A stretch of DNA of 64,000 nt. Origin: Thermus sp. 2.9 (GTDB lineage Bacteria; Deinococcota; Deinococci; Deinococcales; Thermaceae). Positions 12,351 to 15,431 of this stretch are shown here, one piece after another. Numbering within the stretch: the first letter of the stretch is position 1; each line of letters starts with the position of its first letter. Below the pieces are notes generated by a model, which was not told where the DNA came from, did not search any database, and saw only the letters and a program-made list of their open reading frames with translations. The stretch lies in assembly GCF_000794385.1 (NCBI RefSeq), contig NZ_JTJB01000001.1, forward strand, positions 62,001 through 126,000, read 5' to 3'. The translations under genes were made by a program, and so were the position numbers.

Positions 12351-12977
12351 CTAGGCCCGCAGGAGGAGGGCCCACACCAAGGCCAGGAAGAGGAGAACCC
12401 TTAGGGCCTGTACCCGCCGGGGAAGGCGCGGGCGGCTAGACCTTAGGGCACCTTCCACCACCACCCCTGCGATGCCGAGGAGGATAAAAAGGTCCCCAGG
12501 GCTCACCACCTTGCGCAAGGGTGGCAAGGGGATCACGTCCCCCAGGAAGGGCAGGCGGGTGGTTTCGTCCAGGAGGGCGTGTACTGCATCCCCTTTGCTT
12601 TCCACAATGGGCACGAAGTCCCCGATGCCTGCCCGTTCCAGCGCCTCGGCGCTCACGGGCATGTGCCCCCCATTGACGAAGATGACGGCGGTATTGAGAA
12701 GAAGCCCTACCAGGACCAGGTAGAGGCTTTTCAGGTGGCGGTTTTGGTACAGGCCGTAGCCCACCAGGAGGAGGACCGCAACCTTGGCCAAAGGCCCCGC
12801 CCATGCCGGTGAAAAGAGTTCCCGGTAAGTGCCATAAGCCAGACCTCCCTCGGCCAAGGCGGCGAGGAGGAAGGCCCAAGGGGCCTTTAGGTCTACTCCT
12901 CCGAGGTCCTTGGGCCGGGCTCCGAGGGCGAGGGCGAGGCCGAGGCCGAAGAGAGCTGCGGTGAGGTAGAGCGTAAT
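12351..12977 (-). CDS. DUF5317-type membrane protein, probable ATT start
   Basis: Integral membrane protein of unknown function with about six transmembrane segments; the middle carries VNGGHMPVSAEALERAG, the kind of loop seen in DUF5317 proteins. The start is unusual. AGGAGG (12985-12990) sits 7 nt upstream of an ATT at 12975-12977, which gives a 208-residue product beginning with a hydrophobic helix. In this frame no ATG, GTG or TTG occurs near the ribosome site. The only usual start is a TTG at 13040, which would add 21 polar residues coded over the HD-GYP gene and has no Shine-Dalgarno. It overlaps the 3' end of the HD-GYP gene by 85 nt. Confidence 0.75.
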   Translation of the reverse strand: MTLYLTAALFGLGLALALGARPKDLGGVDLKAPWAFLLAALAEGGLAYGTYRELFSPAWAGPLAKVAVLLLVGYGLYQNRHLKSLYLVLVGLLLNTAVIFVNGGHMPVSAEALERAGIGDFVPIVESKGDAVHALLDETTRLPFLGDVIPLPPLRKVVSPGDLFILLGIAGVVVEGALRSSRPRLPRRVQALRVLLFLALVWALLLRA

Positions 12978-14296
12978 AAGGATCCCTCCTTTGCTGCGAT
13001 GTAGGCTTTGCGGTCGCGCCAGATGGGGTTTTGCTCCCAAAGCTGGGTGAAGAGGCGGACCAGGTCGGGGTCAAACTGGCGGCCGGAGTTCTCTTGAACT
13101 TCCTTTAGGGCTTCTTCGGGTGTTAGCGCCTCCCGGTAGGGACGCCCGGCGGTCATGGCTTCGTAGGCGTCCGCCAGGCCCACGATGCGGGCTTCGTCCG
13201 GGATGTTGTGCCCGGCAAGGCCCTTAGGGTAGCCCCGCCCATCCCAGCGCTCGTGGTGGTAGAGGATGACCCGGTAGACCAGGTCGTCAAAGGCCACCTT
13301 CCGGGCGGGGGAGAGGAGCTCCACCCCCCTTTGGGAGTGGGTTTGGATGAGGGCGTACTCCGCTTCCGTTAGCTTGCCGGGCTTTAGAAGAACCGCTTCC
13401 GGGATGCCAATTTTGCCGATGTCGTGAAGCCTCGCCGCTCGGTAGATGTCTTGGGCCTTGGCCTGGTCCTTGTAGAAGGCCAGGGCCAGGTCCCGGGAGA
13501 TGTCCGCCACGCGCTCAGAGTGGAAGCGGGTTTCCTGCTCTTTTGCCTCCAAGGCGTTCATCAGAAGCTCCAAGGTGGTGTCAAAGGCCTGCTCCAGGCG
13601 CACCTTCTCGTCCCAGTAGAAGCGGCTGTAGTAGAGGGGGATGAGGAAGAAGAGCACCGTCCACCCACCCCAGTTCCCCAGGAGGGGCGTTTCATACGCC
13701 CGGGCGAGGAGGAGGGCGATGGGGGAGAGGAGGAGGTAGCTGAGGGCAAGCCAGCTGAAGTTTTTTCGCCACGCTTCACGCCAGGGGACGTTGTTGGCAA
13801 GGTGGATGGCGGTGGTTACCAGGGTGGTGTTGACCAGGAAGAAGGCTAAGGAGGCTGCGACGATGCCCACCCCTGCAGATAGGTTCCAGGAACCGAGGTA
13901 AAGGGGGTTCTGCTGGAAGAACTGCCAAACCAGGGCCGCCAGGGCGGTGGCCAAAGCATTCTGGGAGCTATTAAAAAGCTCCTTATACCAGACTTTTCGG
14001 CGCCACTGGAGCAAAAAGCTGAGAAGGGGGGGTACCCATGGGGATGTTAACGCTATCAAAGCCAGAGCAAAGATAAAAAACTGGCTCATGCTGGCGCTTA
14101 AGGGGAGCGGGACACGAACAGACACGCTCCAAAGCATGAGCGCCCCCCAGAAGAGCAGGTCCAGGAGGCTCAAGCGGAGGGGCATATCTCTATAGGCCCA
14201 AAACAGGAAACCTTCCAGGGCCAGGAAGCCCAAGAAGGCCGAGAGGACCAAGAGGAGCACCCGCGGAGGGGGAAGCTCCAGGCGTTTAAGGGCCAT
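12893..14296 (-). CDS. Membrane HD-GYP domain protein
   Basis: Probable signalling phosphodiesterase for cyclic di-nucleotides, or a metal-dependent phosphohydrolase of that fold. The 467 residues have an N-terminal membrane sensor of about seven hydrophobic segments (to about 210), a short helical linker and a C-terminal HD-GYP domain: ARLHDIGKIGIPEAVLLKPG, then HHERWDGRGYPKGL and ADAYEAMTAGRPYR. The metal-binding HD, HH and the GYP signature are all present. The ATG at 14296 is chosen because a promoter ends 9 nt before it; the longer open frame upstream covers non-coding sequence and a terminator. Confidence 0.9.
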   Translation of the reverse strand: MALKRLELPPPRVLLLVLSAFLGFLALEGFLFWAYRDMPLRLSLLDLLFWGALMLWSVSVRVPLPLSASMSQFFIFALALIALTSPWVPPLLSFLLQWRRKVWYKELFNSSQNALATALAALVWQFFQQNPLYLGSWNLSAGVGIVAASLAFFLVNTTLVTTAIHLANNVPWREAWRKNFSWLALSYLLLSPIALLLARAYETPLLGNWGGWTVLFFLIPLYYSRFYWDEKVRLEQAFDTTLELLMNALEAKEQETRFHSERVADISRDLALAFYKDQAKAQDIYRAARLHDIGKIGIPEAVLLKPGKLTEAEYALIQTHSQRGVELLSPARKVAFDDLVYRVILYHHERWDGRGYPKGLAGHNIPDEARIVGLADAYEAMTAGRPYREALTPEEALKEVQENSGRQFDPDLVRLFTQLWEQNPIWRDRKAYIAAKEGSLLRSTSPQLSSASASPSPSEPGPRTSEE

Positions 14297-14305
14297 GGTG
14301 GCCTG

Positions 14306-14334
14306 AGTGTAGCAAATCCCCCTTCTTGGCGCAA
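14306..14334 (-). promoter_or_regulatory. HD-GYP gene promoter
   Basis: TTGCGC (14329-14334), 17 bp, TACACT (14306-14311) on the minus strand. The ATG lies 9 nt after the -10, so the message has almost no leader. Confidence 0.65.
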
Positions 14335-14339
14335 GAAAT

Positions 14340-14366
14340 AAGGAGGCCAGCTTAGCTGGCCTCCTT
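14340..14366 (-). terminator. Terminator of the 29-residue peptide gene
   Basis: A perfect 13-bp inverted repeat around one central base, AAGGAGGCCAGCT and its complement. On the minus strand it is followed by TATTTCTT. It starts 2 nt after the small gene's stop and directly precedes the HD-GYP -35. Confidence 0.8.
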
Positions 14367-14367
14367 C

Positions 14368-14457
14368 CTATTCCCAGCGAGCACTTGCTCCAGCCGCGAG
14401 CCCGAGAGCGATCAAGCTGCCGAGAAGAACCAACACACGTGCGATCAGCTTCTTCAT
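14368..14457 (-). CDS. 29-residue hydrophobic peptide
   Basis: A short gene encoding a peptide that begins MKKLIARVLVLLGSLIALG and ends ASARWE. It looks like a bare signal peptide or a single membrane helix with a basic N-terminus. Support for real expression is strong for its size: a GGAGG Shine-Dalgarno about 8 nt before the ATG, a consensus-like promoter 50 nt upstream (14514-14542) and a perfect terminator directly downstream. Function is unknown. It could be a small membrane protein, a type I toxin-like peptide, or the translated part of a small RNA. It sits between the tRNA pair and the HD-GYP gene. Confidence 0.65.
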   Translation of the reverse strand: MKKLIARVLVLLGSLIALGLAAGASARWE

Positions 14458-14513
14458 CTTTATCCCTCCTTTTCCTCCGCTTCCGGGGGGTCGGCCCCGT
14501 CTGCTTGGCTTTC

Positions 14514-14542
14514 ACTTTAGGGGGGGTCGTCAATACTGTCAA
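14514..14542 (-). promoter_or_regulatory. Promoter of the 29-residue peptide gene
   Basis: TTGACA (14537-14542), 17 bp, TAAAGT (14514-14519) on the minus strand. This is a full-consensus -35 with optimal spacing, among the best promoters in the window. Confidence 0.75.
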
Positions 14543-14616
14543 GAGGGGAAGAATAGGTATCAGCACGTAATAGATTGCTTTGCTCCTCACATAATCCTGG
14601 AATGGTTAGTATCTTG

Positions 14617-14705: not shown

Positions 14706-14810
14706 GAACCCTTACCGCCTCATACCCTCGCCTCCAAGGGGGGAGGGAAGCGTGGGTGTAACGCGTGTCGCCCCCTTCTTGCCCAGTTTAGCAACCTGCC
14801 AAAACAAAAC

Positions 14811-14832
14811 GCCCGCTCACTTTGGAGCGGGC
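14811..14832 (-). terminator. Terminator of the tRNA operon
   Basis: GCCCGCTC and GAGCGGGC pair around a 6-nt loop. On the minus strand the stem is followed by GTTTTGTTTTGG. It lies 14 nt beyond the tRNA-Phe CCA end. Confidence 0.9.
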
Positions 14833-14846
14833 GCCAGGCTCGTCTT

Positions 14847-14922
14847 TGGTGCCGAGGGGCGGAATCGAACCGCCGACACTGCGATTTTCAGTCGCATGCT
14901 CTACCAACTGAGCTACCTCGGC
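14847..14922 (-). tRNA. tRNA-Phe (GAA)
   Basis: A 76-nt cloverleaf with encoded CCA. The acceptor arms GCCGAGG and CCTCGGC pair, the D-arm is GCTCAGTTGGTAGAGC, the anticodon loop CTGAAAA gives GAA, and the T-arm reads GGCGGTTCGATTCCGCC. Second gene of the tRNA operon, only one base after tRNA-Asp. Confidence 0.98.
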
Positions 14923-14923
14923 G

Positions 14924-15000
14924 TGGCGGCCCCGACGGGACTCGAACCCGCGATCTCCCACGTGACAGGCGGGTGTGTTAACCAACTACACCACGGGGCC
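14924..15000 (-). tRNA. tRNA-Asp (GTC)
   Basis: A 77-nt cloverleaf with encoded CCA. The acceptor arms GGCCCCG and CGGGGCC pair, the anticodon loop CTGTCAC gives GTC, and the T-arm reads GCGGGTTCGAGTCCCGT. It is transcribed first. The single-base gap to tRNA-Phe means processing must cut almost flush. Confidence 0.98.
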
Positions 15001-15043
15001 TTGAGGTTTTGCCGGGTCGGGGGCGTCCGACCGGGCACTTAGG

Positions 15044-15072
15044 ATGATAGCCGGGGGAAGGGGAAGTGTCAA
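15044..15072 (-). promoter_or_regulatory. tRNA-Asp/Phe operon promoter
   Basis: TTGACA (15067-15072), 17 bp, TATCAT (15044-15049) on the minus strand. Its -35 overlaps the start codon of the divergent gene at 15066. Confidence 0.85.
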
Positions 15073-15431
15073 GGTTAACCTGGAGCGAGGTCTTCGCCTT
15101 TCACCGCACCCGGCGGGGGATTGGACGGCAAAGCCTCCTGGTGGACCGGGGCGAGTCGGGGTACCGGAACGTTTTTCTGCCGGATGGCCGCATCCTCTAC
15201 ATGGGCGAGGGGAAGCGGGGGCATCAGGAGCCCGTGGGGGGAAACCTGCGCCTCCTTTTGGCCCACCGGGAGGGCAGGCCCCTAAGGGTCTTCCTCCGGG
15301 AGCGGCCCGGGGTGTGGCGGGACCTGGGATGGTACCGGGTGGAGGGGTGGCGGTACGCCCTTTGGGAAGAGGAGGGGCGGTACGTGTACTGGTTTACCCT
15401 TGCGCCCGGTGGATGCGAAGAAGCCCCTTGA
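15066..15431 (+). CDS. Uncharacterised 121-residue protein, possibly SRA/PUA-like
   Basis: Function not recognised. The GTG start yields a basic, aromatic-rich protein with GYRNVFLPDGRILYMGEGKR, a GGNLRLLLAHREG stretch, then PLRVFLRERPGVWRDLGWYR and a Trp/Tyr-rich end. The order DGR-I-Y-GEG, GN-L, PLRVF, LGWYRV recalls the SRA-YDG / PUA-like nucleic-acid-binding fold found in some restriction systems, but this is a hunch from pattern, not a search. It converges on coaX with a 38-nt overlap. A TAGGAT (15040-15045) could serve as its -10, overlapping the divergent tRNA promoter. Confidence 0.65.
   Translation: MSRLTWSEVFAFHRTRRGIGRQSLLVDRGESGYRNVFLPDGRILYMGEGKRGHQEPVGGNLRLLLAHREGRPLRVFLRERPGVWRDLGWYRVEGWRYALWEEEGRYVYWFTLAPGGCEEAP

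Follow-up and report, generated by a model that had tools for sequence, protein, structure and literature searches.

What does a reading frame of 29 codons in front of a membrane-bound HD-GYP gene of Thermus sp. 2.9 stand for: a chance pattern, a regulatory RNA or the gene of a very small protein? The frame lies on the minus strand of the window, i.e. the whole stretch of 64,000 nucleotides of DNA that was analysed, and the original prediction had described it as a complete expression unit for a membrane microprotein or a dual-function small RNA. The question deserves attention, as conserved microproteins with one helix often prove to serve important membrane machines as subunits or regulators, and gene finders miss such genes on account of their small size. 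Comparison with related genomes indicates that positions 14457-14368 (minus strand) very likely hold a translated, selected gene for a membrane-targeted peptide, and this protein-coding microgene is probably equipped with its own sigma-A-type promoter, a strong ribosome-binding site and a terminator.

Expression signals of the microgene

The microgene (14368..14457, minus strand) starts with the ATG at 14457, comprises the predicted 29 codons and ends with a TAG, the last nucleotide of which is 14368; it encodes MKKLIARVLVLLGSLIALGLAAGASARWE. The TTGACA-N17-TAAAGT promoter described earlier was recovered by a promoter scan at 14542-14514 (minus), with the -35 element TTGACA at 14542-14537, a 17-nt spacer and the -10 element TAAAGT at 14519-14514, in sum 10/12 consensus matches. 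The presumed start site would give a 5' leader of approx. 50 nt (14458..14507, minus), in which the GGAGG of the original prediction is contained in the ribosome-binding site AAGGAGGG (AAGGAGG, 14471-14464, minus). The GGAGGG of this site does not vary across 11 aligned Thermus leaders. The stop codon is followed by an inverted repeat that would form an intrinsic terminator hairpin (14366-14340, minus) with a tail at 14339-14331. A perfect 13-bp terminator had been claimed, and its 13-nt arms are indeed 100% complementary, but the folded stem consists of 12 bp and a 3-nt loop, and it lies just outside the interval to which the unit had been assigned. The tail, ATTTCTTGCG, is only moderately T-rich.

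Upstream of the -35 element, column conservation revealed a box, GATACCTATTCTTCCCCTC (14543..14561, minus), with a mean conservation of 0.89 versus 0.68 farther upstream in 25 Thermus loci. The 25-mer comprising this box and the TTGACA has a single genomic occurrence at up to three mismatches, and the box is possibly an UP-type element or the site of a regulator or activator.

Three promoter-like sites were found in a 5-kb scan, compared with 0.5 expected, and terminator-like patterns are frequent by chance in the scanned DNA (8 found, 5.2 expected). By these counts, the promoter is mildly unusual when taken alone, whereas the terminator is not; the case for the microgene is carried by conservation, not by pattern matches. 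Of the 57 orthologous loci, 54 have an upstream sense promoter with at least 9/12 matches, and in 54 the stop codon is followed by a hairpin and a T-rich tail. The unit as a whole exceeds chance because nearly all sampled species of two families share the frame together with its promoter and terminator.

Selection on the reading frame

The comparison of aligned loci indicates that the short frame is under amino-acid selection, within a fixed architecture and with a conserved adjacency to the downstream gene. The peptide has 29 residues in 52/57 aligned loci and 30 in the other five, and a 28-residue form occurs in one genome beyond these loci (G039). Frame-breaking indels, which the original prediction had named as evidence against itself, are absent from all 57 loci. 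It had also proposed that the frame be kept by synonymous change in other Thermus species, and this is borne out by a dS of 0.58 and a dN of 0.16 in 25 Thermus genomes, in which the other two frames have no comparable excess of dS over dN. In three clades, pN/pS values of 0.354, 0.399 and 0.291 stand against null means of 0.88-0.93; 0/2000 column shuffles reached the observed value in each clade, and nearly all shuffles brought in stop codons. Conservation in Thermus is 0.844, 0.913 and 0.777 for codon positions 1, 2 and 3, respectively. From the comparison of these loci we infer that the unit is both transcribed and translated.

Distribution across genomes

In a first sample, tblastn searches with the peptide detected full-length relatives in 23/24 other Thermus genomes and also relatives in three to four genomes of the sister family. 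Two profiles (A1 and A2), built from relatives found by tblastn, match 49 of the 50 genomes examined from the family to which Thermus sp. 2.9 belongs and, in the sister family, 11 of the 14 examined. At a threshold of E <= 0.001, none of the 47 other genomes examined of the same phylum is matched. The three sister-family genomes without a peptide match are drafts of 71-88% completeness; the HD-GYP match of G041 and that of G050, two of these drafts, begin at a contig edge. The single Thermus genome without the peptide (G011) carries a deletion of approx. 0.7 kb, through which the promoter, the peptide and the first ~110 HD-GYP codons were lost in one step. This deletion is located in L118 around 2262, with otherwise collinear flanks. 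Because the peptide is absent from this near-complete assembly, it is not strictly essential.

The peptide locus is found once per genome, with the exception of G067, which has two identical copies. These are located on two contigs (C1 and C2; L066 and L119), agree in both the peptide and the HD-GYP match, and reflect either a large duplication or an assembly artefact. No peptide relatives were detected in the plasmids and viral contigs searched.

Comparison of the peptide with Pfam, NCBIfam, PHROG, PADLOC and PDB sequences gave nothing near significance, and neither Pfam nor NCBIfam contains a model that covers it. A search of the literature on Thermus small proteins and small RNAs, the scope of which excluded most subscription journals, returned no description of the locus. 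As far as its sequence can be classified, the peptide falls into a known kind, the small membrane proteins, without being a member of any known family. Apparently, a gene that lacks a family model and encodes an invariant Trp near its end is near-universal in two thermophile families, which include the genus of a model organism.

Features of the peptide and a putative membrane helix

A basic-hydrophobic microprotein of the membrane had been predicted, and the composition fits. Residues 1 to 8 contain three positive and no negative charges in 56/57 loci, and the best 19-residue Kyte-Doolittle mean is 1.89-2.51 in 57/57, with one segment that is long enough to span the membrane. K2, K3, K/R7, L15, A17, L18, G23, A24 and W28 are invariant or nearly so, and L15, A17, L18, G23, A24 and W28 do not vary at all in the 52 peptides of 29 amino acids. 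Positions 25-27 and 29 vary strongly between species. In one genus, the C-terminal part consists of six residues, xxx[FY]xP, instead of xxxWx. This pattern fits a single-pass helix with a cytoplasmic N-terminus and also a signal peptide that is cut after AGA.

We favor the first of these readings, in which the 29 residues would form a single-pass microprotein of the inner membrane. K2, K3 and K/R7 would keep the N-terminus in the cytoplasm, while residues 4-24 would constitute a membrane helix in which L11, L15 and L18 form a Leu face and S14, A17, A21 and A24 a face of small residues. The polar tail, which is short and variable, may be anchored by W28 at the outer interface. We infer this topology and, from the conservation of the segment, that the peptide most likely stays uncleaved; it would then contact a helix of a larger membrane protein and stabilize or tune this partner. 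That the peptide works uncleaved as a membrane helix is more probable than a secretory role, and a larger membrane protein is probably the partner of this small helix.

The peptide shares its size class and its one hydrophobic helix with single-pass membrane microproteins such as KdpF, MgtR, CydX and DinQ. According to published accounts, these have approx. 30-40 residues and one helix, are usually overlooked by annotation and contact membrane proteins (PMC3618439, PMC6813294, PMC6005532, PMC3567139). In contrast to KdpF, which is co-transcribed with the operon of its partner, the Thermus peptide would be monocistronic, and it matches no library sequence.

Alternative explanations

The resemblance to a signal peptide raises the possibility of a secreted peptide. 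Residues 1-24 would then serve as a Sec signal peptide, and cleavage after A22-G23-A24 would free a pentapeptide xxxWx (SARWE in this genome). Such a peptide could act as a signal in the periplasm or outside the cell, and the MASE9 domain that the neighboring protein has in the membrane might be its sensor. Short peptide pheromones are cut from signal peptides or from small precursors, and the microgene product has in common with them a signal-peptide-like body and a short variable end. The -3,-1 rule of signal peptidase I is satisfied by an Ala at position 24 and an Ala or Val at position 22, each in 52/52 peptides, and the K-rich start and the short hydrophobic core are equally typical. Variable positions 25-27 and 29 around a constant W28 also recall species-specific peptide signals. 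Different from such pheromones, however, the membrane segment of the peptide is under residue-specific selection: segment 4-24 has a fixed length and 86% identity among 12 Thermus genomes, whereas the signal peptide of a nearby amidase, the one control used, is 62% identical and variable in length in the same 12 genomes. In addition, G23 at position -2 is invariant, although the rule does not demand it. A secreted-peptide precursor is thus unlikely.

Two further explanations involve the RNA. Besides encoding the peptide, the short transcript could use its conserved leader for base pairing or for the binding of proteins. No stretch of the unit is more conserved in Thermus than this leader, with a mean conservation of 0.945 compared to 0.845 for the coding part, 0.90 for the promoter and 0.64-0.68 for the flanks, and the leader sequence occurs only once in the genome. 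Nevertheless, the leader sequence differs from genus to genus, and a strong ribosome-binding region together with a 5' stabilizer would also allow for its conservation. Minimum-energy folds contain a GC-rich 5' hairpin in Thermus (possibly CGGGG-CCGACC-CCCCG, 14499-14484, minus) and in several other genera, but the Thermus leader fold does not exceed dinucleotide shuffles in stability (mean z -0.42), and the folds in other genera are only moderately better. Since the hairpin is not significantly stable in Thermus, only conservation of the leader sequence is claimed here, and a structural role is a mere possibility. Among the Rfam covariance models, only those of two tRNAs pass the gathering score, and the microgene unit is left without a match. 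A dual function of the RNA is improbable. Alternatively, translation of the 29 codons, with a Trp codon next to the stop, might decide on terminator formation and hence on read-through into the HD-GYP gene. Such attenuation would agree with the shared strand, the terminator between both frames, the invariant W28 and a terminator arm 0-20 nt from the stop codon in Thermus. It is very improbable nonetheless: the HD-GYP gene has its own promoter, in other genera the stop codon and the terminator are up to ~37 nt apart, an alternative antiterminator was not seen, and selection extends along the whole hydrophobic segment.

A type I toxin, i.e. a small hydrophobic peptide that is silenced by an antisense RNA, would account for the size, the hydrophobicity and the individual promoter and terminator, in which the locus resembles TisB-type loci; TisB and Ibs are short hydrophobic peptides with their own transcription unit (PMC8309996). 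In contrast to these toxins, the peptide is near-universal in two families and vertically kept, while type I toxins have a patchy spread, and no antisense partner is visible. A consensus scan, which was the sole method applied here, detected no antisense promoter-like site in 25 Thermus loci, and the matches in loci of other genera are scattered and mostly cover the sense promoter region. With a clean Shine-Dalgarno site, a single copy in every genome except G067 and no plasmid or viral relatives, a toxin function appears highly improbable. We also considered subunit IIa of the ba3 cytochrome oxidase, which was first found in Thermus thermophilus, has 34 amino acids and is encoded directly upstream of oxidase subunit II (PMC3128077). 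Subunit IIa resembles the peptide in being a tiny membrane protein with one helix and a conserved Trp, and in occurring in the same bacteria, but it carries a Pro motif, PX1-3GT/A (PMC3128077), and the alignment of the Thermus forms of the peptide lacks a conserved Pro. Furthermore, the downstream neighbor is a MASE9-HD-GYP gene in 54/54 testable loci and not oxidase subunit II, and this candidate was rejected.

The adjacent MASE9-HD-GYP/DUF5317 module

Which larger protein could an uncleaved membrane helix contact? The gene immediately downstream (12893..14296, minus) encodes a membrane protein of 467 amino acids that resembles c-di-GMP phosphodiesterases, with Pfam matches to MASE9 (E 1.2e-24, residues 12-227) and HD_5 (E 1.4e-40, residues 244-412). 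As the original prediction had it, the microgene directly precedes the promoter of this gene, a putative leaderless-type TTGCGC-17-TACACT (14334-14306, minus) that was read from the sequence and ends 9 nt before the start codon, the ATG at 14296. The HD-GYP gene would thus be independent of the peptide transcript. It is followed by a gene for a DUF5317 protein (12351..13040, minus; PF17248, E 7.2e-37), which overlaps the end of the HD-GYP frame and has an uncertain start codon.

A MASE9-HD-GYP gene is located directly downstream of the microgene in all 54 loci of both families that have sufficient downstream sequence, and alignment projection places the start of its frame 142-221 nt after the peptide ATG. 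DUF5317 is present in 53/54 testable loci and a dehydrogenase farther on in only about 39, while the genes upstream of the microgene change from genus to genus. As DUF5317 is nearly as well linked, the adjacency of the HD-GYP gene may partly reflect a general conservation of gene order. In the genomes sampled outside the two families (f2, f3 and f5), neither the peptide nor a full-length MASE9-HD-GYP relative was found, and only the HD domain of the HD-GYP protein matches, with ~40%.

The peptide remains intact in three genomes with a damaged HD-GYP gene: an insertion sequence splits this gene in G002, an insert that includes an assembly gap breaks it in G018, and G068 has it in pieces. Survival of the peptide in these strains indicates that the link is not obligatory in every strain, although the breakages may be recent losses. 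In G002, a two-contig Thermus assembly, the insertion in locus L086 extends from approx. +385 to +1300 relative to the peptide ATG, follows HD-GYP codon ~75 and contains a transposase-like frame of ~290 amino acids.

The MASE9-HD-GYP/DUF5317 membrane module is the best candidate for the partner of the peptide, which would then bear on c-di-GMP breakdown. This assignment is tentative, and the separate transcription of peptide and HD-GYP gene counts against such a partnership. The fixed adjacency nevertheless leads to a direct hypothesis on c-di-GMP control in Thermus. In a more specific and rather doubtful version, the Trp-containing C-terminal pentapeptide, or the whole membrane peptide, would serve the neighboring MASE9 sensor domain as its specific ligand or as a subunit. 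If true, peptide and c-di-GMP phosphodiesterase would constitute a two-part signaling module of the Thermales that sets c-di-GMP levels and hence pili, twitching, biofilm formation and competence.

Further observations at the locus

The HD-GYP frame is open upstream of its start codon across the entire microgene unit (14297-14590, minus), and gene finders could for this reason extend the HD-GYP gene too far and miss the microgene. The resulting frame of 565 amino acids (12893-14590) was rejected as marking the gene start and is considered an upstream read-through of the HD-GYP frame, because homology to HD-GYP relatives begins at 14296 or later.

Genes for tRNA-Asp and tRNA-Phe are located at 14808-15072 (minus) and have a terminator as well as a promoter with 11/12 matches (TTGACA-17-TATCAT). 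These two are the upstream neighbors in most Thermus loci, and genes for tRNA-Cys/Val are found near the locus in several other genera. A 121-amino acid protein of unknown function (15066-15431, plus) is encoded divergently from the tRNA promoter and is conserved beside the tRNAs in at least 11 loci.
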